From contig NZ_AQXG01000003.1 of assembly GCF_000375425.1 (NCBI RefSeq), positions 62,001-126,000 of the forward strand: a stretch of 64,000 nt of DNA, given 5' to 3'. The notes below the pieces were generated by a model. It was not told the DNA's origin. It saw nothing but the letters and a program-made list of their open reading frames with translations, and did not search any database. Each line of letters starts with the position of its first letter. The stretch's first letter is position 1. The position numbers and the translations under genes are program-made. This document shows positions 4,460-20,746 of this stretch, one piece after another. Origin of the DNA: Gracilimonas tropica DSM 19535 (GTDB taxonomy: Bacteria > Bacteroidota > Rhodothermia > Balneolales > Balneolaceae).

Positions 4460-5599
4460 TTGGAGTTAAAAGACAGCTTAATTTTAATTGTTGATGACAC
4501 TGAGGCAAATCTGCATTTACTCTCTCGTGTTTTAGGCAAAGAAGGTTTTCGACATATTGAGGCAAGAGACGGACAAGAAGCTCTCGATATGGCCAAAGAG
4601 TATAAACCCGACCTTATATTGTTGGATATCATGATGCCTGATATTGACGGCTATGGTGTTATTCAACAGATCAAAAACTCACCCGAACTAAGTGATATTC
4701 CCGTCATTTTTCTGAGCTCACTCACCGAAACTGACGATAAAGTTCAGGCATTTAAAGCCGGCGGCGTAGATTATATCACCAAACCCTTTCAAAAAGAAGA
4801 AGCCTTAGCGAGAATTAAGACGCATTTACAGATTCGGTTTCTTCAACAGCAGCTCAATGAACGTATAAAAATCTTAAGGGAAAGAGAAGTTGAACTCAGC
4901 CGCTTGAACCAAAAGAAAGATGAACTGGTTAGGACGGTGAGCCATGATATCAAAAATCCACTTACCGGTATCATTGGATTAGTGAAGTTAATGAAAGACT
5001 CTGATCAGGTGTCCGAAGATGAAAAGAAACAAATGCTTTCTGTCATTGAAGAAAGTGGAACCAATTTATTGAACCTGGTGCGGGAGGTTCTTGATCGTGA
5101 ATCGCGTAAGGTACGATCCGAAGAACTGAACTATGAGGAAGTGGCTGTCTTTGAGATCATCGAACGTGTGATCTCTATGAACAAAGCTAAGTCTCTCGTG
5201 AAAAATATTGGCCTTGATTTCACCATTCAGCCCAAAAACATAATAGCTGAGGTTGATCAAAATAAAGTGGAAATAGCGGTGAATAACCTGGTTTCAAATG
5301 CTCTCAAGTTTACTCCATCGGGTGGAAAAGTTGCAGTACACGTTAGCTTAAAAGAGCAGGATGTTTTCATCGAAGTCAGGGACACAGGAATCGGAATACC
5401 TGAGAAAATGCTGCCGGATATTTTTACCAATAAAGATTATTCAACGACAGGCACAAGCGGAGAATTGGGAACCGGTCTTGGATTAGATATTGTCCTGCTT
5501 TATGTTGAGTTACACGGCGGAAAAATTTCAGTTCAATCGCAGCTTGATGAGGGAACTACTTTCGTTCTGCGTCTGCCTCAAAAAAGAAAAGATCACTAA
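4460..5599 (+). CDS. Hybrid REC-histidine kinase without sensor domain
   Basis: A 379-residue soluble protein. An N-terminal receiver domain (about 7-120) has acidic DD at 12-13, phospho-acceptor D56 in LLDIMMP and K108 in TKPF. A helical linker (120-155) leads to HisKA with H162 in SHDIKNP. The HATPase_c domain has NNLVSNALKF (275-284), DTGIG (308-312) and GTGLGL (337-342). No membrane segment or sensor is present, so input presumably arrives as phosphate on the receiver. The start is TTG at 4460; the nearby ATG at 4449 is out of frame. The next gene, another receiver protein, starts nine bases after the stop. The position directly before the Pel-like genes suggests control of exopolysaccharide, which is inference. 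Confidence 0.85.
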   Translation: MELKDSLILIVDDTEANLHLLSRVLGKEGFRHIEARDGQEALDMAKEYKPDLILLDIMMPDIDGYGVIQQIKNSPELSDIPVIFLSSLTETDDKVQAFKAGGVDYITKPFQKEEALARIKTHLQIRFLQQQLNERIKILREREVELSRLNQKKDELVRTVSHDIKNPLTGIIGLVKLMKDSDQVSEDEKKQMLSVIEESGTNLLNLVREVLDRESRKVRSEELNYEEVAVFEIIERVISMNKAKSLVKNIGLDFTIQPKNIIAEVDQNKVEIAVNNLVSNALKFTPSGGKVAVHVSLKEQDVFIEVRDTGIGIPEKMLPDIFTNKDYSTTGTSGELGTGLGLDIVLLYVELHGGKISVQSQLDEGTTFVLRLPQKRKDH

Positions 5600-5607
5600 T
5601 TTAGAAA

Positions 5608-6543
5608 ATGAAGTATAAAATTTTAGTTATCGACGATGATGAACCTATTCATCTGATGATCAAGAATCTTGTGAAAGATGAATTTACTGTAATATCTGCA
5701 CAGGATGTTCAACAAGCCATTGATATTCTTTCTGAGCAAAATGTAAATCTGATACTTTCGGATATACATATGCCTGGTATATCAGGGCTTGAATTTTTGG
5801 AATCTATACGACTTGATGAGGAAAAGAAAAAGATCCCTGTACTCATCATGACTAACTTACCAACCGTAGAGAAGGAGCAGAAAGCTCTTGACCTTGGAGC
5901 GGCTGATTTTATTAAAAAAGAGCTTCTTAATAACGACAAAGAGAAAGTCCGGGAGATCATCCGGATGAAGCTTGTGACCGATGTTAGGGTTGAGAACCTG
6001 GACGAAAGTCAGTCAAAGAAAAAAGATCAGCTTGTCATGCAGTTAATGGAAACGGCTATTTCGGGCACATTCCATGATACTATTGAAACGCTATGCAATG
6101 GCGTAAGAGAATTGGTTAATCCTCAGTTTGCCGGTTTTTGGATGATTCAGGATGGTAAAACGAATTTACTGCATTCTACTTCAAAGCGTGATATTGATAC
6201 TTCAGTATTCCAAAATTTAACAGCTGAAGATAGCTTTGATCATCTACAGGAACATAAAGAGTCGTACCTGAGCAACCATGTGTTTAACAAGGAGTTGGGG
6301 TTTTTTGTTGATTATTCTAAAGAACACGGTCTCGCAGCAGAAATAGGTGTCCCGCTCTTTGCTATCAGTGAGAGAGAGCTTTTGATGAACAACATGGAGG
6401 TCCCGGAAAACGCACCTATGTTTGGTTTGCTCATCATAAAAAGATCGGTATTGTTTTCATCAGAAGAATTTGAGCTGATCTCCAGGTTGATCAAACAATC
6501 CGGTTCAATTTTGTATCGTCTTTTTAAAAAATCGAACGCCTGA
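5608..6543 (+). CDS. Receiver domain fused to a GAF-like domain
   Basis: A 311-residue cytosolic protein. Residues 3-120 form a receiver domain with D9-D11 acidic cluster, D52 in LSDIHMP and the conserved lysine near 103. The rest (about 140-308) looks GAF-like: an alternation of strands and helices with VNPQFAGFWMIQDG near 172 and EIGVPLFAIS near 248, followed by a final helix. There is no DNA-binding, GGDEF, EAL or HD-GYP output, so it probably works by protein contacts. It is sandwiched between the hybrid kinase (9-base gap) and the first glycosyltransferase (10-base gap), and so likely belongs to the same transcript. Confidence 0.75.
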   Translation: MKYKILVIDDDEPIHLMIKNLVKDEFTVISAQDVQQAIDILSEQNVNLILSDIHMPGISGLEFLESIRLDEEKKKIPVLIMTNLPTVEKEQKALDLGAADFIKKELLNNDKEKVREIIRMKLVTDVRVENLDESQSKKKDQLVMQLMETAISGTFHDTIETLCNGVRELVNPQFAGFWMIQDGKTNLLHSTSKRDIDTSVFQNLTAEDSFDHLQEHKESYLSNHVFNKELGFFVDYSKEHGLAAEIGVPLFAISERELLMNNMEVPENAPMFGLLIIKRSVLFSSEEFELISRLIKQSGSILYRLFKKSNA

Positions 6544-6553
6544 TCTATTTTAT

Positions 6554-7744
6554 ATGCATGTGATGCTCATCATAGAAGGAACGTATCCGTGGTATAGAGG
6601 AGGTGTCAGTGAATGGGTTTATCAATATTTGAGTCATCTTTCGGATACTACATTCACTCTTATCCAGATTGCTACTGATGAATTTCAAGGACTGGATCCT
6701 AATGAAGCACTGTATCCTGTTACTCCCAATATTCAAGAATTTTTAAGGATTTCTCCACCTGAATTTTCGGAGGCTTCTTTTAACGGATTGGATAGCTGGT
6801 ATGAAGAATTCATCCAAACGATGAGTATAGATTCAGCCTCTTATGATTTGATTCATGTGGCTAATACCGGTTTTGCCGGCTGGCTTGGTGCAAAGTTATC
6901 CGAAGTGTTAGAGATTCCAATGTTGCTTACAGAGCATGCCATTTATTGGAAGGAAGTTCAAATGGGAGCATCGGCTTTGGAATGTGGATATAAGATTCCC
7001 ACAAATGAGATCAAAAAGCAAGAAACTGTAGGCTGGTTCAAAGAGCTTGCCAGATTTACTTATCAGCATGCCGATCAAGTTATTTCGGTATCGAAAGTGA
7101 ATATTTCAGAGCAACTAAAACTTGGGGCTAAAAATGTAGCGTATATCCCCAACGGCATTCCTGTTTCTTTCTTGGTGAGTGAGAAGTCAAGGAGGAAAGT
7201 TCCCCATATTGGGTGGGTAGGACGTTGTGCTGAAATGAAAAACCCACTTTCTTTTTTTGATTATGTAAGTGCTTTTCGGGAATTAGACATCGATCCGATT
7301 TTTACCATGTTGCTTAGTGATGCCAATGAGAAGGATCTTAAGCATCGGGTGATAGAAACTGCAAAAGCATTTCCTGAAGTTACTTTAGTCTGGAATAAGT
7401 CTGCTCGCTCTTATTTCCCCGAGTTTGATTTTCTACTGATCACAAGCCACAATGAATCTCAGCCTTTGGTAATGCTTGAGGCTTTAGCTTCAAAAGCGTT
7501 GCCGGCAGGATACCAGGTAGGGGATTTTGATCAAAAGTTTGGCCTTAGTTTTTCTGAAAAAACAACCATCTCGTATCACGTCGATGAGATAACAAGGCTT
7601 TGGAACTCAACAAATGAATTCAAAAAAGCGATAGAGTCTAAATTTAATTTGGTCCGAGATAATCATACCTGGTCCAAGCTCTTTGATGAATATCAGGAAC
7701 TGATGTCTTCTTTGGCAGCACATAAAAACACTGTTCGAAATTGA
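6554..7744 (+). CDS. PelF-like GT4 glycosyltransferase (first copy)
   Basis: A 396-residue GT-B glycosyltransferase. The N-terminus, EGTYPWYRGGVSEWVYQ at about residues 8-24, is the hallmark of the PelF/DUF3492 family, which has EGxYPY..GGVS..W in this place. The C-terminal half has VGRCAEMKNP near 223 and an EX7E catalytic pair (about E301 and E309 in NESQPLVMLEAL), typical of retaining GT4 enzymes. It is shorter than true PelF by about 130 residues. The next gene is a second PelF-like enzyme that overlaps its stop (TTGA junction). PelF polymerises UDP-GalNAc/GlcNAc in Pel synthesis; whether this copy acts with or instead of its neighbour is unknown. Confidence 0.8.
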   Translation: MHVMLIIEGTYPWYRGGVSEWVYQYLSHLSDTTFTLIQIATDEFQGLDPNEALYPVTPNIQEFLRISPPEFSEASFNGLDSWYEEFIQTMSIDSASYDLIHVANTGFAGWLGAKLSEVLEIPMLLTEHAIYWKEVQMGASALECGYKIPTNEIKKQETVGWFKELARFTYQHADQVISVSKVNISEQLKLGAKNVAYIPNGIPVSFLVSEKSRRKVPHIGWVGRCAEMKNPLSFFDYVSAFRELDIDPIFTMLLSDANEKDLKHRVIETAKAFPEVTLVWNKSARSYFPEFDFLLITSHNESQPLVMLEALASKALPAGYQVGDFDQKFGLSFSEKTTISYHVDEITRLWNSTNEFKKAIESKFNLVRDNHTWSKLFDEYQELMSSLAAHKNTVRN

Positions 7745-9324
7745 GCACCGATAAACCCCTCATATTATTCGAAACCGAAGGATCTTATCCTTACAGCGGA
7801 GGAGGTGTTTCTACCTGGGCGCATATATTATGTACGGAACTGAAGGAGAAGGTGGATTTTCACGTATTAGCCATCACCGGAAACCCTTATGTTGAAAGCC
7901 GTTACCGCTTGCCGGAAAACATCAAAAAAATCATTCATGTCCCTTTATGGGGCGTGGACGAACCTTCGGATTATTATGATAACGACCGTCCGTTTTCCCT
8001 TCAAATTCAAAGGAAATCTAAAGCAACAAAGCAGATAACCCAGACTTTATTCAAGCCAATTTTTGAAGATTTTATCGATTGTTTATTAAATCCGTATTCC
8101 GATGTTCAGCGAATAAGTGATGTGCTTTACGGCCTTTGGAAATACTTTCAGCATTTTGATTACAAACAAACGCTGCGCCAACCACTGTTATGGGTTGAGT
8201 TTAAAAGTGCAATCCTGAACTACTTTGAGGATGCCGATCTTCATGAAAGCGAAGAACCCAGAGTATTTGATCTCACTTTTGGAATGAGATGGCTGTATCA
8301 TTTTTTGATGCCCATTGCTGTTGATGTCTCAGAGGATATTGATGTATGCCATGCAACGCTTGCCGGTTTTCCTGCACTCAGTTCCATCGCCGCTAAATAC
8401 GAGTATGGAACTCCCGGAATAGTAACCGATCATGGGGTTTATATGCGAGAGCGCTTAATTAATGTGGGACAGGCAGATATGCCATTCTTTTCAAAGCGAC
8501 TATTGGTGGATCTGTCAACCCTGGTTAGTCGCTCGGTATATTTTACTGCAGACCAAATATCTCCGGTTACAACAGCTAATAAAGCATGGGAAAAAAGATT
8601 TGAAGCTAACGAGGAGAACATCAAACCCATCTATAATGGGGTAAATACGGATGTGTTCAAGCCGACTCCCAAGCCTCGTCAAACACGTGATACCCCAACC
8701 GTTATTGCAGTGGCTCAGGTATTTCCGCTTAAGGATATTGAAACAATGATAAGGTCTGCTGACCTAGTTAGAAAAGAGATCCCCGGTGTAAAATTCAAGA
8801 TTTATGGAAGCCTTGAAGTTGACAAACCATATGTGCAAAAATGCCGGAAGCTGGTTGAAGAATTGAATCTTGAGGATACTTTTGAATTCGGTGGATTTCA
8901 TGATCAACCCAGCATGATATTCAATGAAGGCGATATATCTATTCTAACGTCCATTTCAGAGGGATTTCCTTATACGGTCATTGAATCCATGAGCTGCGGC
9001 CGGCCTGTTGTAGCTACCGATGTGGGAGGAATTCGGGATGCACTTGAAGGTTGCGGAATATTGTGCAAGCCTCGTTCACCTCAGGATATAGCAAATGGAG
9101 TGATCAAGCTGTTGAAAGATGATGACCTGCGTCTGGAATACGGAAGGAAAGCAAGAGAAAGAGTGCTTCTGACGTTTAAGACAGAGATTTCTGTGGATGC
9201 TTATTATGAATCCTATCTTGATCTGTGTAGCAAAAAAAGAACTCCATTGCGTGAAAAGGTACAGGTAGAGTCTGTTAAAAACCTGTTGGAACATCTTGAA
9301 AGTATGGAGCCTGCCTATGTTTGA
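7741..9324 (+). CDS. PelF-type glycosyltransferase (second, full-length copy)
   Basis: A 527-residue protein, the usual PelF length. The DUF3492 N-terminal domain (about 1-275) opens with ETEGSYPYSGGGVSTWAH; the GT4 C-terminal domain (about 300-490) has AVAQVFPLKDIETMI near 320 and the EX7E pair near E407/E415 in ISEGFPYTVIES. In Pel systems this is the cytosolic synthase that makes the polymer from UDP-sugars at the inner membrane with PelG. Translation starts at TTG 7741, overlapping the upstream stop by four bases. A PelG-like gene follows immediately, which strengthens the assignment. The polymer itself cannot be read from sequence. Confidence 0.85.
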   Translation: MSTDKPLILFETEGSYPYSGGGVSTWAHILCTELKEKVDFHVLAITGNPYVESRYRLPENIKKIIHVPLWGVDEPSDYYDNDRPFSLQIQRKSKATKQITQTLFKPIFEDFIDCLLNPYSDVQRISDVLYGLWKYFQHFDYKQTLRQPLLWVEFKSAILNYFEDADLHESEEPRVFDLTFGMRWLYHFLMPIAVDVSEDIDVCHATLAGFPALSSIAAKYEYGTPGIVTDHGVYMRERLINVGQADMPFFSKRLLVDLSTLVSRSVYFTADQISPVTTANKAWEKRFEANEENIKPIYNGVNTDVFKPTPKPRQTRDTPTVIAVAQVFPLKDIETMIRSADLVRKEIPGVKFKIYGSLEVDKPYVQKCRKLVEELNLEDTFEFGGFHDQPSMIFNEGDISILTSISEGFPYTVIESMSCGRPVVATDVGGIRDALEGCGILCKPRSPQDIANGVIKLLKDDDLRLEYGRKARERVLLTFKTEISVDAYYESYLDLCSKKRTPLREKVQVESVKNLLEHLESMEPAYV

Positions 9325-10951
9325 GGATCCAAATATTCAAACTGATTCCATCTCATACGCAGAGGCGGTGAAAGAAATTACGGATCAGGTTCATGAGATG
9401 GTTGGCAATCCCCTTAGCAAATGGGCGGTGGCTGCAACCATAGAATCTTTAGGTATCAGGGACGTAGATGCCCGATCTGATTTCGGGTATGATACTGTAT
9501 TTGATCTTGCCGATGAGGTTTTTAATCGCATTAAGGATCGAATCAACCAAAAACCTGCCGAAAAGCTGCGAGAGGAGGAAGACTTTGAGTTTGGAGGATT
9601 CTTTCGGTCATTAAAACTCTTTTTGAAATACTACTCGCAAGGCATGGTGTTCTCGTTGCCCATGTTGTCACAGATCATAGCCATCATCATTTTTGAGTAT
9701 GCACTTTGGGCCTGGTTTGACTTCAACGAAGCGCAAGCAACCGTTGTAGCCTTGGGCACTATTATTTCGTTCATTGTTACCGGTGGCTTTATCCAAACTT
9801 TGGGCAGACTGGTTTCCAGGTATAAGGGAGAAGGGAACTATTATCTTGCCTCAAAAGCTACCTCGTCTGTAATGAAGCTCGCGGTTCCGGTAGTCTTGCT
9901 TGCTGCATTGGCGATCTTTACGCTGAACCTGATTCTGCCTTTCTACCCACAGCAGCTAATGATACTTTCCATGGTTTACATGGTTCTCATTTCATTCTTA
10001 TTACTTTCAGCGGCCATACTATTTGCCACTGAACAACGAACCATGATATTGGTGGGTATTTTGACAGGTACCGCCGTTGTTATTTTTGGGATGGATTTTG
10101 CCGAATTTGGAATCTATGTATCTCAATGGCTTGGAATTATTACCGGAACAGTCATTATGACACTTTATGCAGTTGTTTATTACCGGATAAAGATCCATGC
10201 TTTGCGGCAGGAATTGTTCAAACAATCGCTGCCGGAAGCAGAGGTGAATTACTACAACACCTATCGCTATTTCATCTATGGATTCTGCTACTTCACTTTT
10301 TTATTTATGGACCGATTGCTGGCCTGGTCAGCGGGGCCACCGCCTCCGGAATATATTATTTGGTTCAATACGCCATATGAGCTGGGAATGGACTGGGCGC
10401 TTTTAACCCTTGTAATCACAATTGCGATGCTTGAATACAGTATCCATTCTTTTTCGTTGAATTTGATACCGGTCCAAAAATCAGCCTTCATTTCAAAGAT
10501 TAAATCCTTTAATTCTTTTTTTAGAAGATTTTATGTGAAACAGGTTTTATTACTTTTGTTTATTAGCGGGGTATCAATTTTAGTGACATATTTTGGAGTT
10601 CTGAGCCTAAGGGCATTTGAAGATCAAGTCCCGGAAATTTCAGATTTTTTTGCTAATCCCATGACCTTTAAAGTGTTTTGGATGGCGAGTATTGGCTATG
10701 TCTTTTTAGTTTATGGTTTATTGAACAGCTTATTCTTTTTTACTCTCAATCGCCCTGAACTGGTGATATATGCTATGGCCGGGGCTTTATTCGTAAATTT
10801 TATAACCGGGTTTTTATGCAGCCGAATATTCGGACTGGAATATGCGGTGATCGGACTAATAGCCGGATCAGCTGTCTTTGCAATTACGACAGGTATCTTG
10901 GCAAAAAGATTTTTTAAACATTTGGATTACTTTTATTACTCTGCATTTTAG
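9317..10951 (+). CDS. PelG-like polysaccharide exporter with N-terminal extension
   Basis: A polytopic membrane protein of 544 residues with about twelve hydrophobic segments from residue 110 onward. The segment FTFLFMDRLLAWSAGP near 330 and the following YELGMDWALL are characteristic of PelG, the MOP-superfamily exporter that partners PelF. True PelG is about 450 residues; here roughly 100 extra soluble residues, including a helical acidic stretch, precede the first membrane segment. ATG 9317 was chosen: it overlaps the pelF-like stop by eight bases and is preferred to the TTG at 9296, which would add only seven residues. The downstream gene starts ten bases after the stop. Confidence 0.82.
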   Translation: MFEDPNIQTDSISYAEAVKEITDQVHEMVGNPLSKWAVAATIESLGIRDVDARSDFGYDTVFDLADEVFNRIKDRINQKPAEKLREEEDFEFGGFFRSLKLFLKYYSQGMVFSLPMLSQIIAIIIFEYALWAWFDFNEAQATVVALGTIISFIVTGGFIQTLGRLVSRYKGEGNYYLASKATSSVMKLAVPVVLLAALAIFTLNLILPFYPQQLMILSMVYMVLISFLLLSAAILFATEQRTMILVGILTGTAVVIFGMDFAEFGIYVSQWLGIITGTVIMTLYAVVYYRIKIHALRQELFKQSLPEAEVNYYNTYRYFIYGFCYFTFLFMDRLLAWSAGPPPPEYIIWFNTPYELGMDWALLTLVITIAMLEYSIHSFSLNLIPVQKSAFISKIKSFNSFFRRFYVKQVLLLLFISGVSILVTYFGVLSLRAFEDQVPEISDFFANPMTFKVFWMASIGYVFLVYGLLNSLFFFTLNRPELVIYAMAGALFVNFITGFLCSRIFGLEYAVIGLIAGSAVFAITTGILAKRFFKHLDYFYYSAF

Positions 10952-10960
10952 GGGTTCATT

Positions 10961-12589
10961 ATGATCAAAGACGTAAAAAGCTATATAAATACAGTCGGAA
11001 ACCGGCTAAGCAAAGCCTTTTCGATGGAGGCCTTTGGTACCGAAGAACAGCTTGAATTTTGGGAACTTTCAGCCGAACATTTTTCAAGAAAAGAGGTGCC
11101 CGCTTTTAGTGAAATAGTGAACTGGATGGATCACTTGTATAAAGCTCCGGTGCACTTTGTATACAAATTAAAGGATGAAAAGCTGATCTTGGATCGCAGG
11201 CACGTGATCACAAAGAACATCCTGCAAAAGAAGGAGAACGATAGGGAACCGCATGAAGAAAATCCTCAAGAAAAAGAATATGTAAAGAATTTTGAGCATC
11301 AGCTTCAAAACCTGGAAAAGAAAATGGGCATGGATGATGTGTTTCTGGAACAAGGCATCACTTCTCATGCTATCGGCCAATGTGAGCACATTCCATTATT
11401 CAATAAAGATGGGGAGTTCTGGGGAATTTATTGTGCCGGTCCTTATACCAAAAGCCCCGATCAGATCACCCCTAAATTATCAATTGTAGGGAGAATACTG
11501 TCCACATGGCTCATACAGCTCGAGGAACTCGAAAGTAATCCCCAAAAAGATTACAGGGAAAAGGTAAAACCTGTCATCTCAGATCTTGGCAGCGGACGAT
11601 TGAATACGCCCGGATTGGCTCAAGTTATGCTTCGGTACATGGTGCATTACCAAAAAGTAACATTTGGGGCAGTTGTTGAGCTTACCGATAAAGCTCATTC
11701 TGTTATTGCATCCTTTGGGGTGGATGAGGAAATAACAAAAGTGTTTAACCAAACCGGTGCAGAGCTTTTCATCAAAACTTCGGAAAATGAGGTGATATTA
11801 TCCGAAAAAGGGAGGTCTCTATCTGAACGTTTTCCTAATAAATTTGAAATGGTTCCTTTTGAAGAAAATGGTCATCGGGGAGTCCTGCTTTTAGAAAAAC
11901 CTGCTGACGGCCAAACAAATAAAACCATTGAGTTGAAAAGTTGGGCACGGGTTTTTAGTCGTTTATTGAAATATCAGCAGCAAAACCAATCTTTTTCGGA
12001 CGACTTGTTGAACTCCTATTACCAAATGATCCGTTTACTTGAAAAGCGAAGGGAAAAAACCCGGTTTCATACTCCGCGGATGATCTCTTTTGTTCAGAGG
12101 TTTGGAATGTTCTTTGGGCTTGAAGATGATGAGATGGAGATCATTAAACAAACAGCTAAACTGCATGATATCGGATATGTTGGAGCTCTTAGTGTTGATC
12201 CCGGAAAAACGATCGGAACTGAGATTGATCATCCAATTATTGGGGCCGACTTGATCGAACACCTTTCGGTTCATGATGATGTGATAGAAGGCATCAGAAC
12301 TCATCATGAGTGGGTGAATGGAAGCGGATCCCCCATGGGATTGAGCTCTGAAGAGATTCCATGGACCGGAAAGATCGTAGGCATGTTTGAGTATGTGGTT
12401 GATTTCATAGAATCAAATGAAGGGGATGAATCTAAAACGGGAGAAGAATGGATTAAACAACTATCAAATGGCCTTATGAAACGAGCAGATGTAGAATTTG
12501 ATATGGTGCTTATTCCAACTGCCATACAGCTTATTCAATCGTTAGGATGGGAAGCTTGCATTGCTTTAGGAACACAAGAGAATCAATGA
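10961..12589 (+). CDS. GAF-like/HD-GYP-domain protein of the Pel-like locus
   Basis: A 542-residue soluble protein. About 1-340 is sensor-like, with two stretches that resemble GAF folds (about 120-180, including IPLFNKDGEFWGIYCAG, and 205-320). Residues about 345-542 form an HD-GYP-type domain: HTPRM near 368, LHDIG with H401-D402, DHPIIG near 427 and HHEWVNGSGSP from H448. The HDIGK lysine is Y, GYP is GSP, and the late Asp metal ligand (usually in ADxFDA) is E, so phosphodiesterase activity may be reduced or lost. In classical Pel loci this role, cyclic-di-GMP sensing through a GAF protein, belongs to PelD. The possible substitution is inference. Confidence 0.75.
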   Translation: MIKDVKSYINTVGNRLSKAFSMEAFGTEEQLEFWELSAEHFSRKEVPAFSEIVNWMDHLYKAPVHFVYKLKDEKLILDRRHVITKNILQKKENDREPHEENPQEKEYVKNFEHQLQNLEKKMGMDDVFLEQGITSHAIGQCEHIPLFNKDGEFWGIYCAGPYTKSPDQITPKLSIVGRILSTWLIQLEELESNPQKDYREKVKPVISDLGSGRLNTPGLAQVMLRYMVHYQKVTFGAVVELTDKAHSVIASFGVDEEITKVFNQTGAELFIKTSENEVILSEKGRSLSERFPNKFEMVPFEENGHRGVLLLEKPADGQTNKTIELKSWARVFSRLLKYQQQNQSFSDDLLNSYYQMIRLLEKRREKTRFHTPRMISFVQRFGMFFGLEDDEMEIIKQTAKLHDIGYVGALSVDPGKTIGTEIDHPIIGADLIEHLSVHDDVIEGIRTHHEWVNGSGSPMGLSSEEIPWTGKIVGMFEYVVDFIESNEGDESKTGEEWIKQLSNGLMKRADVEFDMVLIPTAIQLIQSLGWEACIALGTQENQ

Positions 12590-13443
12590 GGTATTTTTTT
12601 TTACTTCTTTTTGTCATGAATCTGATCTTCGGTTGTTCTCAAATTAAGCCCGAAAAGCCTGAGCTGACCTCACTAACTCCCTTTGGTGTTTGTTACTCTA
12701 AGCTTTCTCCCAAAGAAGTTTCCCCCTATAAAATGGTTATTGTTGAACCGGATTTCTATAACAGCCAAGAGATCAAATCCTTAAAAGAAACAGGCACCCG
12801 GATCTTTGGATATGTTACTTTAGGGGAAGTTGATCCAAACCGCTGGTATTTCAACAAAATGGAAGAGCTCGGTTTTCGGGGTGAGAATAAAATTTGGCAA
12901 AGTTCTTATCTGGATTTAAAAAACCCGGCTGTACGTTCTTTATTACTCGATCAGGTTATACCGGCCGTTGTTGATAAAGGTATGGATGGGCTGTTTTTGG
13001 ATACCATTGATGCCGTTTCTCCAGAAACTGAAAGGGCAGATCTGCAGCCATACATGGCAGAGCTGATCCGTTCGCTTCGCCTTAAATATCCTAACCTATT
13101 CATCATTCAGAATGCAGGATTGTTTCTTTTGGACAGAACGGGCCCTTATATCGATGCTTTCCTTACGGAATCACTGGCCTCGGATTATGATTTTGAGAAC
13201 CGTGAGTATTTAATTCGTACGGATAGTGTTTTCAACCAAAGACTGGGGTATTTGAATGAATACATCCGGAATACGGAAATTCCTTTTTTGATTCTGGACT
13301 ATGCCGGGAATCCTATCCAAGTGCAACAAATACGATCGAGGTTAGATACCCTTGGGCGGCCTTATTTTATAAGTAACATCGCTCTCTCAAAGCTCCCTGA
13401 AAAGGTGGATTCTGTAGCCAATAGGTTAACACACGGGAGATGA
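12586..13443 (+). CDS. PelA-hydrolase-like (GH114-type) lipoprotein
   Basis: A 285-residue protein beginning with a short hydrophobic signal and an IFGC lipobox (C18), so it should be exported and lipidated. The mature part is a TIM-barrel glycosidase-like domain of the GH114/DUF297 type: GYVTLGEVDPNRW near 78-90, a WQSSYLDLKNPAVR stretch, DGLFLDTIDA near 134-143 and FLTES near 193. These positions correspond to acidic catalytic residues in the hydrolase half of PelA, which cleaves alpha-1,4-galactosamine links. The ATG at 12586 overlaps the upstream stop (ATGA) and leaves an intact signal peptide; starts further upstream would destroy it. The hydrolase is a stand-alone protein here, separate from the deacetylase. 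Confidence 0.78.
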   Translation: MRYFFLLLFVMNLIFGCSQIKPEKPELTSLTPFGVCYSKLSPKEVSPYKMVIVEPDFYNSQEIKSLKETGTRIFGYVTLGEVDPNRWYFNKMEELGFRGENKIWQSSYLDLKNPAVRSLLLDQVIPAVVDKGMDGLFLDTIDAVSPETERADLQPYMAELIRSLRLKYPNLFIIQNAGLFLLDRTGPYIDAFLTESLASDYDFENREYLIRTDSVFNQRLGYLNEYIRNTEIPFLILDYAGNPIQVQQIRSRLDTLGRPYFISNIALSKLPEKVDSVANRLTHGR

Positions 13444-15503
13444 TGAATTACGAGTTACAAGCCATATTTTCTCTGTTAAGGCTCCTGATTGGATTTTTGT
13501 TTGTATTTGGGGTGATCACACCGCTTTTCTTCAGGTTTATCAGTAAAAAAAGAGGCATTGACCGGTTGGTCTTCTCTTGGATTAGTCTTGGAGGCCTGTT
13601 AGTGGTGGGAAGTTTTTTGCTGGTTTCCCTGAACATATATGATTTCATCAGTATCCTTTTTTTCCTGTTAATGCTGCCTCTGTTGGTGAAATTCTTCAAA
13701 AGAACCTGGGAGGGGGAAAATATACCTGATATTTTCACTGCCGCTGAGCATGCATTGGTAGCCGGTCATATCCGGCTGATCGAGCAACTTAAAGAGCTTG
13801 GGCTTTCTGATATCCGTGATAAAATTAAAAGTAGTTTTACGTTTAGTGTATCCAATCCATATTCCATTGCTGCTATCCTGATTGCTTTAGCAGGGGCCGG
13901 TTTACGGATCATTCCTGCAATTCAAAATTCTGCTCCCTTTAGCCGTATCTGGTATTTTGAATTGGATGCAGTGAAGAATCTGAGTTTGCAACAATATTTT
14001 CAGGGATTTCCGGCCCCAAAGGGAATGCATTCACTTATTAATTTCTTCAGCACCATTACGCAAGTAAGTCCTGAGATGATCCTGCACTTAGCCGGCGGAC
14101 TGATCAGTTTCTTTTTGGCGGTCATTATTTATTGGATGATTCGGGATATCACTGGCCAAAAATATCCTGCTGCAGCGCTGTTTGGCACAATGCTTTACGC
14201 TGTGTTTCCTTCACTATTTTTACCGATTTCCATGGAGCTGGAATCCGGCTCGTCTTCCCTTGCCGTTGCCCTTAGTTTTGCACTTCCAACTATGCTTATG
14301 TTCTTGAGGAATATCAGATCAGGTGGAAGCACACCTTGGTTCTTTATCTTTATGGGGATCATTACAACGGGTTTGACAGATATTTTCGTTTTACTGATGG
14401 TTCTTGTTCCCTTTCTAATAATCGGTTTCATATCAATACCCGGCAGAAACTTCTGGAAAAATTTTGGGCGTATTATGGCTTACCTGATGGGAACCGTAAT
14501 GCTGACTCTCAGCCCGTTCATCCTGTATTGCTGGATAAATAGTATATCGGCTAAAACCTTTTTTCAGGATCAACTATTCAATACCCAGGTTTTTAGTTTT
14601 ACACCAAACCTGATTATCCCGCTGCAAGACCTAAGTATATATTATTTGATTTGGGGGATTGTACTTTTATTAGTGTTTGCTTTACGGCACATCATTCAAA
14701 AACAAAAAAGAGTGAGTGATCTGATCGTCTTTATTTCATTCTTTACCGTGCTCTCGTATGTGTACACGCCTTATTTTGGGTATCAATACATTTGGGTTGA
14801 TCCGGATCAGTTAAATATGGTGTATGGGATATTTATCAGTATAGTGGCTGGAATCAGTTTATACTCATTATTTTTGTTTCTTGAGTGGCTTCATTCCTCA
14901 TTCAAAAAAATTGTTCCTTACCTCTCGCCGGTGATAATGGTTGCAGCCGCTGCCGGCCTTTTGATATTTCAAGGAGGATTTGATCGTAACAGAATGTTCC
15001 CTCAAACACTGCCCAACGGTTTTTTTGAAGCCTATTATGAAATCATCAATGAAAGAGTGCCCTATACGTATGCAACGGTAGGACCTGAATTGGATAGAGA
15101 ACTTTCCTTAAACCGCCACTATTTTATGAATTATCAATATTTTCTAAATAATTATGGAGCTATTGATTCCTTGTATCAGCAATATTTAACTGTACCGGCA
15201 GAACAGCGAACAGAAGTACAGGAAGTTCCACCGGCCAGCATTTTTATATTTGTGGAGAAACCGCCTTATGGATCAATCCAACAAGGTATTTTATACGATG
15301 CTCAAAGTACGATGAGAGATATTGAACAATGGCTCGAATCATTCAGAGAACTGGAAGGGAGAAAACTTCAAGTATACCACGAGACCGATCAGGCTATTGT
15401 CTACGAGATTGTGAATCGGGAGGAAGAGTCTACTATAGACGGAGTATTAAAAAATATATATCCGGAGGATCAGGGACGTGCTGCACGCCTGCTTAAAAAA
15501 TAG
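13440..15503 (+). CDS. Large polytopic membrane protein of the Pel-like locus
   Basis: A 687-residue protein I do not recognise with certainty. It has about twelve hydrophobic segments between residues 8 and 520, a soluble insert around 85-135, and a C-terminal soluble domain of about 165 residues (520-687) that probably lies outside the cytoplasm. The alternation of an early extracytoplasmic loop and many helices resembles GT-C-type sugar transferases, but no catalytic motif can be named. It is translationally coupled to its neighbours: ATGA overlap with the hydrolase upstream and a 26-base overlap with the deacetylase gene downstream. By position it could replace the inner-membrane PelD/PelE components; that is a guess. 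Confidence 0.6.
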   Translation: MMNYELQAIFSLLRLLIGFLFVFGVITPLFFRFISKKRGIDRLVFSWISLGGLLVVGSFLLVSLNIYDFISILFFLLMLPLLVKFFKRTWEGENIPDIFTAAEHALVAGHIRLIEQLKELGLSDIRDKIKSSFTFSVSNPYSIAAILIALAGAGLRIIPAIQNSAPFSRIWYFELDAVKNLSLQQYFQGFPAPKGMHSLINFFSTITQVSPEMILHLAGGLISFFLAVIIYWMIRDITGQKYPAAALFGTMLYAVFPSLFLPISMELESGSSSLAVALSFALPTMLMFLRNIRSGGSTPWFFIFMGIITTGLTDIFVLLMVLVPFLIIGFISIPGRNFWKNFGRIMAYLMGTVMLTLSPFILYCWINSISAKTFFQDQLFNTQVFSFTPNLIIPLQDLSIYYLIWGIVLLLVFALRHIIQKQKRVSDLIVFISFFTVLSYVYTPYFGYQYIWVDPDQLNMVYGIFISIVAGISLYSLFLFLEWLHSSFKKIVPYLSPVIMVAAAAGLLIFQGGFDRNRMFPQTLPNGFFEAYYEIINERVPYTYATVGPELDRELSLNRHYFMNYQYFLNNYGAIDSLYQQYLTVPAEQRTEVQEVPPASIFIFVEKPPYGSIQQGILYDAQSTMRDIEQWLESFRELEGRKLQVYHETDQAIVYEIVNREEESTIDGVLKNIYPEDQGRAARLLKK

Positions 15504-18500
15504 AGATTTTACATTCAGCTCTGGCTTATTGATCACTTTGCTTTTGTTGATCATAACGATGAGTTTTTTATCGTGTAAAAACAGGGATGAGAGTCAATCC
15601 AAAATGCTTGAACTTCAATCAGAACCTATGGTTTTGATCCTGAAAAATCAGAATGAGGAATTAAGTAAAGGAACTTCTGACCAGGTAACAAAAGCGCTGG
15701 ATTACGCCAAGATACCTTTTCTTACAACTGATCTTGGGATCATTTCAAGAACGTTCAATATTCCGTCGAGTATCAGGACATTGGTTATTACAACTCCAAG
15801 TGTTGAGAATTTTGATGAGCAAGAGGTGCAAAACATATTAAAGTTTGTGGCAAAGGGAGGCTCATTGGTATTTACCAATCCGGTTTTGGATCAAAAGTAT
15901 AGCTTTTTACAAGGACTGAAACCGAATGCCGATTTTGTATTAGACTCGGTTAATTCAGGTTTTCATCTTTATGAAGAAGCGTTTCCCGGTATGAAAGGAC
16001 AAACGTTTGAGCAGCCCGGCCTACAAACACATTATGGTTTGATTGCCGGAGACTTTTCAAATGAAACAATGGTGCTGGCCGGAACCGCGACTAATACCGG
16101 CCAACCGTTCATAGTTTCCAATAAAATAGGGCTTGGGGAAGTTTTGACGATTAACAGTTTTATTATGAATGGTAAAGTCTATAGGGGAATCCTTTTTTCA
16201 ACTATTCTACGAACGCTTCCTGGCATTCCGTATCAGGTTGCCAATGTGAGTACAATTTTTTTGGATGATTTCCCGGCTCCTCTCTACAACGAAAAATTAC
16301 CTCCAATTGATAAGGAATATGACGTTACCCATGCTGAATTTGTAAGTAAGATTTGGTGGCCTGATATGAAAGCTTTAGCAGACTCTTTTGGGATAGACTA
16401 TTCTGCCATGGTAGCTTTTAATTATAATGCCAATGTAGTGCCTCCTTTTGATTTTCAGGAGTGGCGGCAGGGTTCTATAGTCTTCAATCAAAACATTATT
16501 CAGGGGAGTATCTTTTTGGCAAAAGATATCAGGGATACCCGTCACGAATTGGCCTTTCACGGTTATAATCATTTTTCGCTGTGGGATAATGACTGGGATA
16601 ATATCAATTTTATGATCTCAGCTCTTCAGGCAGCAAGGAAACGCTGGCAGGTAGATGATCTCGGAACATTACCGACCAACTACGTTCCCCCAACAAATGA
16701 GATCGACTCATTGGGACTTGAAGCCATTATTCGTGGAATGCCAAGCATCAATTATATGAGTTCTCTCTATTTCGGAGAAATAGAAGATGGAGGAGGTCGG
16801 GAGTTTGACCCTGATCCGTATGTGCCGGCTCATATTTTTAATTACCCAAGGATCAGCAGTGGGTTTACGATGAGTACAAATACCTTATTCAACCAACAGG
16901 GTTTACAGCTTTTGACAGGTATCTGGACACATTTTGTTCACCCGGATGATGTATTTCAGGTTATTCAGCGCTCCGAGGACGAGTACTCAAGCCGAAATCC
17001 ATTGGGGCTGGGATGGAAATCGAGTGAAGAACACAGTTATGGACTATATGATCTTTTAAGCAGAAGGATCAAATACACACTTCGCTACTACCCCCTAAAT
17101 GATTTTCTTTCTGCAACAGAAGGTGCAAAATATACTGAGGATTGGAGGAGGAGCCTTTCCGGGTACACCCTTGAAGGAAACTCAATGAAAGTAAGGGCAA
17201 CATTTAGGGACAATTATGAACCCAAAGTAGCTGACAGTACCCGTAGTTGGTTTATGTATGTTCCTGAAGATCGTGTGACGAAAGTTGAACAAGCCCTTGC
17301 CTCCGATAGCGTTTTGGCTGTCAGTACTGGATTTTGGGATGGGTTTTTGTTTCAATTCAAAACAGATAAAACATCTTTTACACTTCCTAATCCAGATATT
17401 TCACTCAGTTATGATCCTCAGTTTATAGCCTCTTTAACAAAACAGGTACAAACTGAATATCAGCAATTCAGACAGGCCGCAACAGTGCTTGAGGAATCAG
17501 AAGAAAAATGGAGGGATACCCGGCTGGAAGATGCACTAAGGGCACTCAGAAAAAATCCTGATAACAGAAATATTCAAGAGCAGGTCATAAATTTAAGCAT
17601 TGAGTTTGGCCAGGTTCAGCAAGCCATCAGTATTCTGGAAGACAGGCTGCTCGATTCTCAAGTATGGATAGAAGAAGATATTACACGCTTGCTTACATAC
17701 TATGGTTGGGAAGGGCTTCAGGGCCGGGCAGAGAACTTTTTGGAACAGCTTTGGAGTACCTATCAGAATAAAAAAGTAATTGATCTCAAAAATACGGCCG
17801 TTGAAAAACTTGGTTTATATGGCGAAAAATTCGAGCAAAGATGGCGGCAAAGAGAGCTGCGCTTGTCTCCGGATGACTATCAACTTAAGCTTAATTATAC
17901 CAAATCGATAGAATCTCAGGAGAACTGGCCAGAAATGAAACGAAATCTTCTTGAATTGCTTGAGATAAAACCCGATACCGACTCCCTGTATGCCTTCACT
18001 CTCCAACGGTCGATCTATTACGAGTCTCAGGATAGCACTCTGGCACTTATCGAAGAATTTCCTCCTTCAGCATACAGTCAGTTAACTCCCTTTGCCTCTA
18101 ACTTGGCTTTGATGTACGGGTTTACTGCCAATGATTACGAAAAAGCTCTTTTTTGGGCAAATAACGCTCCGGATTTTGACGAAAGAATAAAACTCTATTG
18201 GCTATCCCAACTTGATCTTGACCAACTGTACAAAGCGAAAGCTTTGGAGTTATTGGAAAGGAATCCGGATGACTCTGAGCTTAGATCTTTTGTGGGGACC
18301 AATCTCTTTTATGAGGGATTCACTAAAGAATCTTATCAAGTTCTATATCCACTTTTCGAAAGGGAGCAAGAACAAGGTTTTACTGCCGACACACTTTTAC
18401 GCAATGAAATAGGATATATGGGATATGAAAAGAAAAAAGATTTCTATGAGCGATATCCTCTTTTCTTTGATGATGATCAAAGGGAAGGTCTTCAGCGGCA

Positions 18501-19401
18501 ATACAGGCTAAATGAGGGAATCAGGGGACAGGTGTTTGGCGAATACCGGGACGATAACTTTAACAATACTTTTGCGCGGGGTGGGATTTCTGCTCAATTT
18601 GGAAATCGAACAAAAAACACTCATTTACTTAAAACAGAATACCTCATTTTTGCAGATGACAATCCTCAAACAAATGAAATTCTACAATATCAGGGATTGG
18701 GTTATGAATTTGCATCCCGTTCGAATAACCAACAAATAGAATTCCGGGTTGCCCCAACTGTATTATTTGGAGAAAGTGACTTCATCCCGCAAGCATTGAT
18801 ATCACTGGGAGTCAGTAAAGATTCAGCATACACTTCTTTGCAATTAACTGGTGGTTCAGAACTGACATCCACTTCACTACAGAATGATTACTATCAAGCA
18901 CAACTTCAGTTTTACCGGCAGGATTTTTGGTTCAGAGGAGCACTGATGACTTCATTATCCGGCAGCGGAAAATATTATACCAACGATGTTTTCAGCTATG
19001 GAGGTCAGACACGTTTATATCTCGACCTTATGGAGGCAAAATGGAGACTACGCCCTGTTGTAGAAATAGGCTATGCTGATGCCACCGTTAGTTACATCAG
19101 CGGAATACCTTATTATACGCCAGATAATTATTTTTCGCAGGGATTGGGTGTTGACCTTCAGTTTAGAAACCCCGATAGTTTTGAATATCGCACTCAGCTA
19201 ACCGGCGAGATTATGGGAAAACATGAAAGCAGGGAAGGATTTTTTGCATCAGGCCGTATTCAGCTTGAACATAAATTTCAGAATTTTTGGGAAATTAGTA
19301 TTGGTTCAGAATTCTCTACAAGCAGTATTTACCGATCAAACCGCATTTTCTTTACCATTTCGCACTACTTTCCAAGATCAATCAACAAGTTAAAACGGTA
19401 A
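15478..19401 (+). CDS. DUF2194-like deacetylase fused to TPR and outer-membrane barrel (PelA/PelB-like)
   Basis: A 1307-residue exported protein. A hydrophobic signal with an FLSC lipobox-like site lies near residues 15-34. Residues about 40-255 look like an amidotransferase/ThuA-like fold; 255-640 form a polysaccharide-deacetylase domain of the PelA/DUF2194 type with LDDFPAP (D263, D264), HGYNH (H361-H365) and THFVHPDD (484-491). About 680-1010 is TPR-like helical repeat, and about 1015-1300 is beta-rich with alternating aromatic strands ending in FFTISHYF, like the porin of PelB. In classical Pel these are two proteins, periplasmic PelA and outer-membrane PelB. The start is GTG 15478 inside the upstream gene; a TTG near 15527 is an alternative. 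Confidence 0.75.
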   Translation: MLHACLKNRDFTFSSGLLITLLLLIITMSFLSCKNRDESQSKMLELQSEPMVLILKNQNEELSKGTSDQVTKALDYAKIPFLTTDLGIISRTFNIPSSIRTLVITTPSVENFDEQEVQNILKFVAKGGSLVFTNPVLDQKYSFLQGLKPNADFVLDSVNSGFHLYEEAFPGMKGQTFEQPGLQTHYGLIAGDFSNETMVLAGTATNTGQPFIVSNKIGLGEVLTINSFIMNGKVYRGILFSTILRTLPGIPYQVANVSTIFLDDFPAPLYNEKLPPIDKEYDVTHAEFVSKIWWPDMKALADSFGIDYSAMVAFNYNANVVPPFDFQEWRQGSIVFNQNIIQGSIFLAKDIRDTRHELAFHGYNHFSLWDNDWDNINFMISALQAARKRWQVDDLGTLPTNYVPPTNEIDSLGLEAIIRGMPSINYMSSLYFGEIEDGGGREFDPDPYVPAHIFNYPRISSGFTMSTNTLFNQQGLQLLTGIWTHFVHPDDVFQVIQRSEDEYSSRNPLGLGWKSSEEHSYGLYDLLSRRIKYTLRYYPLNDFLSATEGAKYTEDWRRSLSGYTLEGNSMKVRATFRDNYEPKVADSTRSWFMYVPEDRVTKVEQALASDSVLAVSTGFWDGFLFQFKTDKTSFTLPNPDISLSYDPQFIASLTKQVQTEYQQFRQAATVLEESEEKWRDTRLEDALRALRKNPDNRNIQEQVINLSIEFGQVQQAISILEDRLLDSQVWIEEDITRLLTYYGWEGLQGRAENFLEQLWSTYQNKKVIDLKNTAVEKLGLYGEKFEQRWRQRELRLSPDDYQLKLNYTKSIESQENWPEMKRNLLELLEIKPDTDSLYAFTLQRSIYYESQDSTLALIEEFPPSAYSQLTPFASNLALMYGFTANDYEKALFWANNAPDFDERIKLYWLSQLDLDQLYKAKALELLERNPDDSELRSFVGTNLFYEGFTKESYQVLYPLFEREQEQGFTADTLLRNEIGYMGYEKKKDFYERYPLFFDDDQREGLQRQYRLNEGIRGQVFGEYRDDNFNNTFARGGISAQFGNRTKNTHLLKTEYLIFADDNPQTNEILQYQGLGYEFASRSNNQQIEFRVAPTVLFGESDFIPQALISLGVSKDSAYTSLQLTGGSELTSTSLQNDYYQAQLQFYRQDFWFRGALMTSLSGSGKYYTNDVFSYGGQTRLYLDLMEAKWRLRPVVEIGYADATVSYISGIPYYTPDNYFSQGLGVDLQFRNPDSFEYRTQLTGEIMGKHESREGFFASGRIQLEHKFQNFWEISIGSEFSTSSIYRSNRIFFTISHYFPRSINKLKR

Positions 19402-19431
19402 CTTTAATTCAGTTTGAACGTAGCCTTTTTC

Positions 19432-19740
19432 ATGAAAGCATTTCGAAAACATATAGAGTGGATGGTTTTTCTAACAGGTTTAGTTCTGCTTGCTTTTATG
19501 AATCCGGAAAGCTCCGGCACTTCATTTTGTGTATTTGATCTTCTCGGATTCGATTTTTGTCCCGGTGAAGGCTTGGGACATTCGATCGCTTACAGTTTCA
19601 GAGGGAATTTTGATGCTGCTATTCAAGCTCATATTGCCGGTCCCGCTGCAATCCTTATACTGTCAGGTCGAATTCTTTCTATTTGGCGTACCCTTTATTA
19701 CTCATCAACCTTAACAAAAGAAACAGAGAACAATGGCTAA
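19432..19740 (+). CDS. DUF2752 small membrane protein
   Basis: A 102-residue protein with two hydrophobic segments (about 10-28 and 69-86). The middle carries the DUF2752 signature CVFDLLGFDFCPG followed by GLGHS; the usual CPGCG is CPGEG here, losing one of the conserved cysteines. ATG 19432 was chosen over TTG 19414 because the extra six residues add nothing recognisable. It overlaps the following TM2-domain gene by eight bases, and DUF2752 with TM2 is a common pairing. The function of either is unknown. It may be a passenger at the end of the Pel-like unit. Confidence 0.7.
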   Translation: MKAFRKHIEWMVFLTGLVLLAFMNPESSGTSFCVFDLLGFDFCPGEGLGHSIAYSFRGNFDAAIQAHIAGPAAILILSGRILSIWRTLYYSSTLTKETENNG

Positions 19741-20077
19741 CGTAATTGATCACCTCCCTGAAATTGAAGGCGATGAAATGATTTATATCAATAAACTTCT
19801 TGAAGGATTAAATGAAGAAGAAGCAGGGAAATTTACCAACGTTTACAGAGCAAGGCGAAAAGACCCTCAGCTGATATTGATCACTTGTCTTTTGGGATTT
19901 TTGGGATTTGCCGGAATCCACCGACTTATAATTAATCAGCTTGGGATGGGTATTCTCTATTTATTTACCGGTGGTTTATGTGTAATTGGAACCGTGGTAG
20001 ATCTTGTCAATTATAAAGATCTTGCTTTTCAGTATAACCGTCAGGTTGCTAAAGAAGTACTTTCATACATTAAATAA
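19733..20077 (+). CDS. TM2-domain protein
   Basis: A 114-residue protein. A soluble N-terminal helix region (1-45) is followed by a TM2 domain: LLGFLGFAGIHRLIINQLGMGILYLFTGGLC spans two closely spaced membrane helices separated by the polar GIHR turn, then a terminal cytosolic helix. TM2 proteins are widespread and of unknown molecular role. It starts eight bases inside the DUF2752 gene and ends four bases before the convergent cytochrome gene, so no independent terminator fits between them. Confidence 0.75.
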   Translation: MANVIDHLPEIEGDEMIYINKLLEGLNEEEAGKFTNVYRARRKDPQLILITCLLGFLGFAGIHRLIINQLGMGILYLFTGGLCVIGTVVDLVNYKDLAFQYNRQVAKEVLSYIK

Positions 20078-20080
20078 CGA

Positions 20081-20746
20081 TTACTTTGTAAGCGTCATTT
20101 TTTGTGATTCAAGGAAAAAGGATCGGTTTCCTGAGGTGATCTTCACACGGTAAATATAAATACCAGATGGGAGGTCGTTCATGTTTACCTGTACTTGTGT
20201 TTTGGGATTATTGGTTACTCCCGAAAATTCTCTGATTAACACGCCCGTTGCGTTATATACATTCAGATTGTAAGCAGATGTAACAGGCGATGTAAAAGAT
20301 ATAATGGTTTGAGGGTTGAATGGGTTTGGGTAATTGTCAATCATTTCAAATCCTTCGGGTACTTCTGAAATCATTTCATTGGATACTGCGACCTCGTTGG
20401 CTCCTTCTGCAATCCAGTTTCTAATTAGGTCAATCTCATCGTTGGATAAAAAAGGTCCGCCTTGAGGCATTCTTGATCCTATTTCAGGGGAAGGCTCTAT
20501 TTTATCTACCAAAGGACTTTGGTTTGGGTTCCCGGGAACTACGATTTCTGTTCCATATTGATCACCAACGCTGTTCATGACGGCATCATAATTAGCCAAA
20601 TTCACTCCGCTTGTGGAACCATGACACGAAACACAACTTGCGTCAAATATTGGCTGGATGTCTTTTTCGTAGTCTACCTGGGCAAATGTGTCAGCTCCAA
20701 AAAAGGAAAAATACAGAAGAACGGTAAGAGGGGTAAGTGTTTTCAT
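20081..20746 (-). CDS. Secreted c-type cytochrome-like protein with T9SS sorting domain
   Basis: A 221-residue protein with a signal peptide (1-22), a small haem domain containing CVSCH (C38, C41, H42) and a GSRMP motif near 90 that may provide the methionine ligand, and a C-terminal type IX secretion type A domain from about 135 (YPNPFNPQTIISF near 140, then PSGIYIYRV). The last domain predicts export through T9SS and surface attachment. The haem part is a clear paralogue of the lipoprotein at 22168-22578. It is last in a four-gene unit with YceI and a DUF5777 barrel, which suggests a surface electron-transfer or oxidative module; the actual substrate is unknown. Confidence 0.8.
   Translation of the reverse strand: MKTLTPLTVLLYFSFFGADTFAQVDYEKDIQPIFDASCVSCHGSTSGVNLANYDAVMNSVGDQYGTEIVVPGNPNQSPLVDKIEPSPEIGSRMPQGGPFLSNDEIDLIRNWIAEGANEVAVSNEMISEVPEGFEMIDNYPNPFNPQTIISFTSPVTSAYNLNVYNATGVLIREFSGVTNNPKTQVQVNMNDLPSGIYIYRVKITSGNRSFFLESQKMTLTK

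Follow-up and report, generated by a model that had tools for sequence, protein, structure and literature searches.

Two described pel operons are among the closest known relatives of the locus considered here. In Pseudomonas aeruginosa, the pelABCDEFG operon (PMC12022489, PMC12141448) combines PelF/PelG-type synthesis with periplasmic deacetylation and with a PelB that consists of TPR repeats and a 16-stranded barrel. PelA and PelB of this organism are separate, interacting proteins, and full-length PelA homologues are reported from 16 phyla, those named being gamma-, beta- and epsilonproteobacteria, Aquificota and Verrucomicrobiota (PMC12022489). In Bacillus cereus, pelDEADAFG (PMC7112168, PMC13254593) encodes PelF, PelG, a separate hydrolase, and a CE26/CBM114 deacetylase, PelADA, which is reported to deacetylate alpha-1,4-GalNAc oligomers (PMC13254593). 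Gram-positive pel loci in which a stand-alone deacetylase is split from the hydrolase were described in 2020 (PMC7112168). Fission of pelB and rearrangements of pelA and pelB are known from other bacteria (PMC7112194); the main text of that paper mentions neither 'Bacteroidetes' nor 'Chlorobi'. Here, we describe a related locus in Gracilimonas tropica DSM 19535 (Balneolaceae; NCBI lists Balneolota as a separate phylum), whose genome of 3.83 Mb is 98.8% complete. The window, that is, the whole stretch analysed, comprises 64,000 nucleotides of contig NZ_AQXG01000003.1 (positions 62,001 to 126,000, forward strand).

The locus is a Pel-like variant that belongs to neither pelABCDEFG nor pelDEADAFG, because it has no two-domain PelA and no pelDE upstream. 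Its central feature is a single protein in which a Pel-type deacetylase is joined to a predicted outer-membrane exporter. It is estimated, with a probability of roughly 0.78, that the locus encodes a synthase-dependent machine for a Pel-like deacetylated-aminosugar polymer, in which deacetylation is coupled to export; that this polymer is Pel itself is rated lower. A sequence-only reading of the window had proposed a divergent, rearranged Pel-like architecture of the FCB group at 6554..20077. The proposal is supported, with qualifications concerning the hydrolase-deacetylase split, the PelF clade, and the start of the operon. The genes that it named were confirmed, nine tightly packed open reading frames (ORFs) lying on the + strand of this interval, and the 3' end of the locus holds. 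The 5' end was set too short. Since the gaps between genes measure only 8, 10, 9, and 12 bases and all other joints overlap, the operon most likely comprises 11 genes at 4460-20077, from a kinase gene through a TM2 gene. A gap of 117 bases lies upstream of the kinase gene and one of 8 bases downstream of it; the gene that follows the TM2 gene (20081-20746) is on the opposite strand. A promoter and terminator scan found sites in numbers not above those in shuffled sequence. The features are as follows.

4460..5599, + strand: response regulator-histidine kinase hybrid (Pfam Response_reg, HisKA, HATPase_c), likely the first gene of the operon
5608..6543, + strand: response regulator (Response_reg 2.7e-21; sub-threshold GAF_2 match of 18.1 bits, cut-off 28.6)
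6554..7744, + strand: PelF-a, short second DUF3492/GT4 glycosyltransferase of 396 amino acids (PF11997 6.4e-31)
7741..9324, + strand: PelF-b, full-length PelF-type glycosyltransferase, polymerase candidate (NF038011 156.6 bits)
9296..10951, + strand: divergent PelG-type inner-membrane exporter with an N-terminal extension of about 110 amino acids (family-level PF16933, hhalign)
10961..12589, + strand: HD-GYP-like signalling protein (HD_5 9.3e-10)
12586..13443, + strand: GH114 hydrolase, lipobox-like in the window (PF03537 8.8e-14; mechanical ORF 12547-13443)
13440..15503, + strand: polytopic membrane protein, possibly of GT-C fold (12 predicted helices and a C-terminal soluble domain)
15478..19401, + strand: fused deacetylase-TPR-outer-membrane barrel protein of 1307 amino acids (profiles and model)
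15553..16962, + strand: DUF2194 region of the fused protein, homologous to the CBM114+CE26 part of PelADA (PF09960, residues 26-495)
17416..18516, + strand: helical TPR-like scaffold of the fused protein, residues 647-1013 (AlphaFold2 model; weak TPR matches)
18523..19368, + strand: modelled 16-stranded outer-membrane barrel of the fused protein, residues 1016-1297
19414..19740, + strand: small DUF2752 protein (Pfam; 18/29 loci)
19733..20077, + strand: small TM2-domain membrane protein (Pfam; 18/29 loci)

The deacetylase part of the 15478 product matches DUF2194 at 1.9e-62, and its closest solved chain is 9zau_A (1.7e-32; 5.6e-78 with the family profile), which we take to be PelADA of B. cereus. 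Nine active-site residues (D263, D264, H361, H365, P405, R458, H488, D490, D491) are kept in all 30 family members, so that by sequence the domain belongs to the CE26 (PelADA) type and has an intact active site. The C-terminal half is predicted to form a TPR scaffold and an exporter-type outer-membrane pore. Matches to TPR profiles are weak (best E 0.0027). In the AlphaFold2 model, the barrel is 16-stranded; a short helix separates strands 7 and 8, and the longest of the strand-strand loops is the one joining strands 11 and 12. This helix and this loop match the Plug-I and Plug-O features described for PelB (PMC12141448). The best structural matches of the barrel are PgaA, PelB, and BcsC, far above other porins. 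A PelB-type combination of TPR and 16-stranded barrel is thus present by model only, joined to the deacetylase in one frame, as the sequence-only reading had it. A lipobox pattern occurs in 20 of 30 family members, and the window protein is 69% identical to that of a related Balneola sp. metagenome-assembled genome (L004). One protein containing both the polymer-trimming enzyme and the predicted pore points to a physical coupling of trimming and export.

The fusion is not confined to one genome. In the phylum sample, which we take to be the Bacteroidota of GTDB (395 genomes for DUF2194; 390 for the polytopic-family and PF16933 searches), DUF2194 is found at E 0.001 in 46 genomes, in 28 of them over the curated cut-off. 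Matches below 1e-50 occur in 27 of the 395, the Gracilimonas genome included, and all 27 lie in long frames of 1268-1349 amino acids. The 19 further genomes hold weak partial matches (E 1.3e-7 to 8.3e-4) in frames of 132-842 amino acids, one of them over the curated cut-off. Four DUF2194 proteins from elsewhere are unfused: two in Bacillus (616 and 603 amino acids), one in Cetobacterium (612), and 9zau (593). In Cetobacterium, of the Fusobacteriota (L104:2779-11118), the unfused gene lies in a block of GH114, GAF protein, DUF2194, hypothetical protein, PelF, and PelG, with no annotated exporter alongside; Fusobacteriota possess an outer membrane. The polytopic protein encoded at 13440 has the same distribution as the strong DUF2194 matches: a search with its family finds it in 27 of 390 genomes, and the two sets are identical.

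Neighbourhoods were compared in 29 loci (25 from phylum-sample genomes, together with L004, L006, L007, and L008), all picked by their DUF2194 gene; L005, a 5 kb contig with a fused 1309-amino-acid frame and no neighbours, and L009 and L010 from Bacillus stand outside this count. In all 29, the gene order runs from PelF-b through PelG and the polytopic protein to the fused protein, more than chance would give in loci selected by the DUF2194 gene alone. In one of them, L041, regulator genes stand between the polytopic and the fused-protein genes. A GH114 gene lies between the PelG and polytopic genes in 28 of the 29, L041 being the exception, and is split in two in L062. Twenty-two loci add PelF-a and the HD-GYP-like gene, and the other seven (L006, L007, L008, L042, L048, L054, L064) consist of the five-gene core alone. 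The 4460 kinase has a match in 18 of the 29 displayed loci, several of the stretches starting within that gene, and the 5608 response regulator in 20. The L008 contig is labelled Limnohabitans; its PelF clusters with flavobacterial rows, and it is probably a misbinned Bacteroidota contig.

Both glycosyltransferases proposed earlier carry DUF3492 in Pfam (6.4e-31 for the 6554 product, 4.9e-42 for the 7741 product). In the NCBIfam PelF model NF038011, with a cut-off of 100, PelF-b scores 156.6 bits and PelF-a 97.8, marginally below. Profile comparison by hhalign with seven other PelF, one of which is a Sulfitobacter protein from a locus without other pel genes in view, gives 1.8e-71 for PelF-b and 1.9e-57 for PelF-a. 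The E-x7-E pattern is kept in 30/30 PelF-b and 21/23 PelF-a. In a tree of 31 PelF rows, rooted at the midpoint, the PelF-b rows cluster together (100/99), and their cluster pairs with the Deinococcus, Streptomyces, and Thermus PelF (100/99, on a long stem), apart from other PelF. The remaining rows group weakly (69/93), and the PelF-a row of L041 is possibly misplaced by long branches. As to whether the glycosyltransferases would group with unrelated families, a point raised in the sequence-only reading, PelF-b passes the PelF cut-off and at the same time stands, with these three, in a clade apart from the other PelF.

The loci of these relatives are on plasmids of Deinococcus sp. QL22 (L097:8992-18003), Streptomyces californicus (L098:6711-16146), and Thermus brockianus (L099:6930-13240). 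Each holds a PelF relative, GH114 genes, an Agd3/CE18-type deacetylase (not significant in Streptomyces), and a multi-pass membrane protein. The match to the fungal Agd3 deacetylase is 5.8e-16 in Deinococcus, 3.4e-7 in Thermus, and 0.028 in Streptomyces, and sugar-nucleotide genes are present in the Deinococcus and Streptomyces loci. Taken together, they resemble the galactosaminogalactan pathway of fungi and could be its counterparts in bacteria. They share with the Gracilimonas locus the PelF clade, GH114 genes, and a membrane protein akin to the PelG extension (significantly so only in Streptomyces). They differ from it in the type of deacetylase, clearly CE18 in two of the three, and in that no fused exporter was seen; the fetched stretches contain no relative of DUF2194 or of the 13440 protein.

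The PelG-like exporter of the sequence-only reading finds support at the level of the family, not of the window protein. The Pfam PelG profile PF16933 matches 7 of 15 relatives of the 9296 product (listing up to E 10; best 1.4e-9) and not the window member. It is over its cut-off in 5 of 390 genomes, always at these loci; nine matches, all likewise at these loci and five of them over cut-off, cover at least 400 of 452 profile positions. Aligned by hhalign with six other PelG, the family gives E 6.1e-5 over 400 columns, at a probability of only 64.9%. The view that the 9296 protein is unrelated to PelG was rejected on the family PF16933 matches and this alignment. Its N-terminal extension matches the Streptomyces membrane protein at 5.1e-6 (those of Thermus and Deinococcus insignificantly), which points to the same kinship as the PelF clade, clearly for Streptomyces only. 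A second, canonical Pel locus finds no support in the 390 genomes, where the top PF16933 match reaches 37.5 bits as against 459 for a Bacillus PelG; this search misses the window's own PelG and so is an imperfect test.

Hydrolase and deacetylase do not share a PelA-type chain here, the hydrolase being encoded separately from the 15478 deacetylase. GH114 is recognised in the 12547 ORF, confirming the GH114-like lipoprotein read earlier. The gene most likely starts at ATG 12586, since this codon directly precedes the signal sequence. Residues E94, D147, and D152 are kept in 30/30 aligned sequences and E208 in 28/30 (an alignment that takes in second copies from L048 and L054), and a lipobox pattern is present in 16/30. 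The family profile also finds the hydrolase genes near two Bacillus pel loci (1.4e-34 and 6e-32). One family is represented by three loci, and two of these (L048:15271-16269, L054:3546-4559) carry a second GH114-like gene directly 5' of pelF.

For the 10961 product, the HD part of the earlier GAF/HD-GYP label stands (HD_5); no GAF match was found, and a GAF domain in the N-terminal part is read by eye only. HD-GYP proteins carry a GYP motif and usually a Lys after HDIG. In this family, H370, H402, D403, H424, and H448 are kept in 23/23 and H449 in 20/23, a Tyr stands at the GYP place in 1/23, and HDIG is followed by Y, L, or M. A single GGDEF match is present in the genome, so that cyclic-di-GMP (c-di-GMP) control is possible. 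That the protein brakes the system by hydrolysing c-di-GMP, and does not take PelD's place as its receptor, is doubtful: the kept HD residues and the single GGDEF protein are in keeping with a brake, but the scarcity of the GYP tyrosine and the absence of the gene from 7 of 29 loci speak against it. Control may take another form in L041 (124-10895), where genes for a HATPase, a GAF-SpoIIE phosphatase, and a STAS protein are interspersed with the pel genes, which suggests partner-switch control instead of PelD.

The polytopic membrane protein encoded at 13440, already recognised as such from sequence, has 12 membrane helices by hydropathy and a soluble C-terminal domain. It has no Pfam match at E 0.1, and 15 relatives scanned with Pfam gave chance matches only; a profile search of the PDB and tblastn in plasmids returned none. 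Structure prediction, which for the 15478 barrel gave a form resembling PgaA, PelB, and BcsC, here gave a poor model (AlphaFold2 from five alignment rows, pLDDT 48). The structural matches of this model, all below the tool's trusted level, are led by GT-C enzymes: AftA, PglB, oligosaccharyltransferases, ALG9, AftD, and DPY19. Among the 50 VIA rows listed, 19 are by title oligosaccharyltransferases, ALG9, AftA, AftD, or DPY19, and 31 are proteins of other kinds, among them receptors, transporters, and designed proteins, with Z below 8 throughout; that the oligosaccharyltransferase rows stand for an STT3-type chain is our reading of their titles. Foldseek with the model gave no match at E 0.001. 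A weak GT-C likeness is therefore suggestive at the level of the model. Two fragments resembling the protein lie upstream of locus L055 (L055:18277-19499).

It appears that such a machine would work as follows. PelF-b, with PelF-a in some lineages, would polymerise UDP-HexNAc, probably UDP-GalNAc, into an alpha-1,4 chain in the cytoplasm, and the PelG-type protein would move the chain across the inner membrane. The 13440 protein may act at this membrane, either standing in for PelD/PelE as a partner or working as a transferase of GT-C fold. The 15478 protein would take over in the periplasm: its CBM114/CE26-type head would bind the chain and remove part of the acetyl groups, its TPR scaffold would guide the chain onward, and its 16-stranded barrel would be the pore through the outer membrane. 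Cutting or clearing of the chain would fall to the GH114 protein, and the two-component and HD-GYP-like proteins may regulate the machine in Balneola-type loci.

Several points weigh against a Pel-like machine of this kind. The evidence is computational throughout. Since PelF-b falls outside other PelF, the polymer may differ from Pel. The 9296 protein has no Pfam match at E 0.1, its family reaches a low hhalign probability with other PelG, and against two Bacillus PelG the comparison is not significant. The 15478 product does not match the Pfam PelB barrel, a search of the genome with PF24604 was empty, as in every control genome, and the barrel model has a pTM of 0.44. The poor 13440 model counts in the same direction, as does the want of visible pelC, pelD, and pelE genes in the operon, where the sequence-only reading likewise had none. 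No scanned operon protein matches PelD, and PelD PF16963 is unmatched in the genome and equally in all 14 control genomes. No operon gene reads as PelE, and none of the PelG, PelF-a, PelF-b, and HD-GYP-like families resembled any of five PelE in profile comparison. A PelC candidate was not noticed in the operon, a genome-wide search for PelC not having been made.

The rival accounts divide over the polymer and over the 13440 protein. The product could be a galactosaminogalactan-like or decorated heteropolymer: its chain, branched or mixed, would be the work of two GT4 enzymes together with a transferase of GT-C type, and the Pel-type deacetylase and pore would only finish and export it. The kinship of PelF-b with the Deinococcus, Streptomyces, and Thermus proteins, whose loci hold GH114 and Agd3/CE18 genes and, in the first two, sugar-nucleotide genes, favours such a product, as do the second glycosyltransferase of 22 loci and the GT-C enzymes at the head of the 13440 matches. 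We nevertheless consider it unlikely: the deacetylase belongs with the Pel enzymes of CE26, not with CE18, 7 of 29 loci have a single glycosyltransferase, the 13440 model is poor, and the PelF tree is rooted only at its midpoint. The 13440 protein may instead be a non-enzyme scaffold that replaces PelD/PelE and binds PelF, PelG, and the periplasmic deacetylase. Co-occurrence with the fused protein in 27/27 genomes agrees with a scaffold, and so does the loop after helix 140-161, which has no fully conserved acid: residue 174 is acidic in 22/30, 176 in 16/30, and 212, at the loop end, in 29/30, and the sole acids kept in 30/30 are D576 and E656 of the C-terminal domain. The GT-C-like structural matches stand against it, and the scaffold is put forward tentatively.

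Compared with pelDEADAFG, the locus has PelF, a PelG-type protein (here divergent), a separate hydrolase, and a CE26/CBM114-type deacetylase with identical active-site residues in common. It differs in that the operon lacks a PelD or PelE gene and has the HD-GYP-like, GH114, and 13440 genes upstream of the deacetylase instead, in the joining of the deacetylase to a TPR-barrel exporter, in the extra polytopic protein, and in the outer membrane to be crossed. Compared with P. aeruginosa, the deacetylase is CE26-type, not CE21, and is joined to the pore, whereas PelA is separate and binds the pore; the GH114 hydrolase is a separate protein, and the operon has no visible PelC, PelD, or PelE gene. 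PgaA and BcsC, the exporters for poly-N-acetylglucosamine and cellulose, share the TPR scaffold and 16-stranded barrel and are not known to be joined to a deacetylase. The split of hydrolase and deacetylase, offered earlier as a distinguishing trait, is real here and was rejected as the novelty, Gram-positive pel loci being already split (PMC7112168). The new features are the fusion of deacetylase and exporter, the weakly GT-C-like polytopic partner that co-occurs with it, an operon without recognisable PelD/PelE, and an HD-GYP-like protein in some lineages. The suggestion that the locus may be undescribed holds for the literature searched, where no description of such an arrangement was found among the best matches listed (most subscription journals lie outside its coverage); the two papers there that mention DUF2194 are, by their titles, not about Pel systems.

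Two further genes deserve mention. Beside the core of the flavobacterial loci L006 (13986-15623) and L007 (13820-15460) stands a DUF4832+DUF4874 protein with a type IX secretion tail, which in the L007 copy is below its cut-off; DUF4832 is an accessory of Gram-positive pel loci too (PMC7112168). The convergent gene downstream of the operon (window 20081-20746, - strand) encodes a cytochrome c-like protein with a type IX secretion tail.

The locus looks like a factory for a sugar polymer (biofilm matrix) related to the Pel of Pseudomonas and Bacillus. A bolder possibility, held with less than even confidence, is a third class of Pel-like machine that arose by mixing: PelF/PelG from the clade of GH114/CE18 loci, a CE26 deacetylase of Gram-positive type fused to a pore of PelB type, and a membrane partner as yet unclassified, perhaps a GT-C transferase, making a decorated polymer without PelD, PelE, or PelC. 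If so, it would be the prevailing Pel-like system in the sampled phylum. The linkage of synthesis, deacetylation, and export in Gram-negative Pel systems has been called unclear (PMC13254593). A natural fusion of deacetylase and pore is evolutionary evidence for the link between deacetylation and export; it sets the ratio of enzyme to pore at 1:1 and offers a single polypeptide for study. The finding also adds lineages of the Bacteroidota type to the known range of Pel-like systems (27 of 395 sampled genomes) and highlights an unstudied family of membrane proteins, that of 13440, present in all 27.

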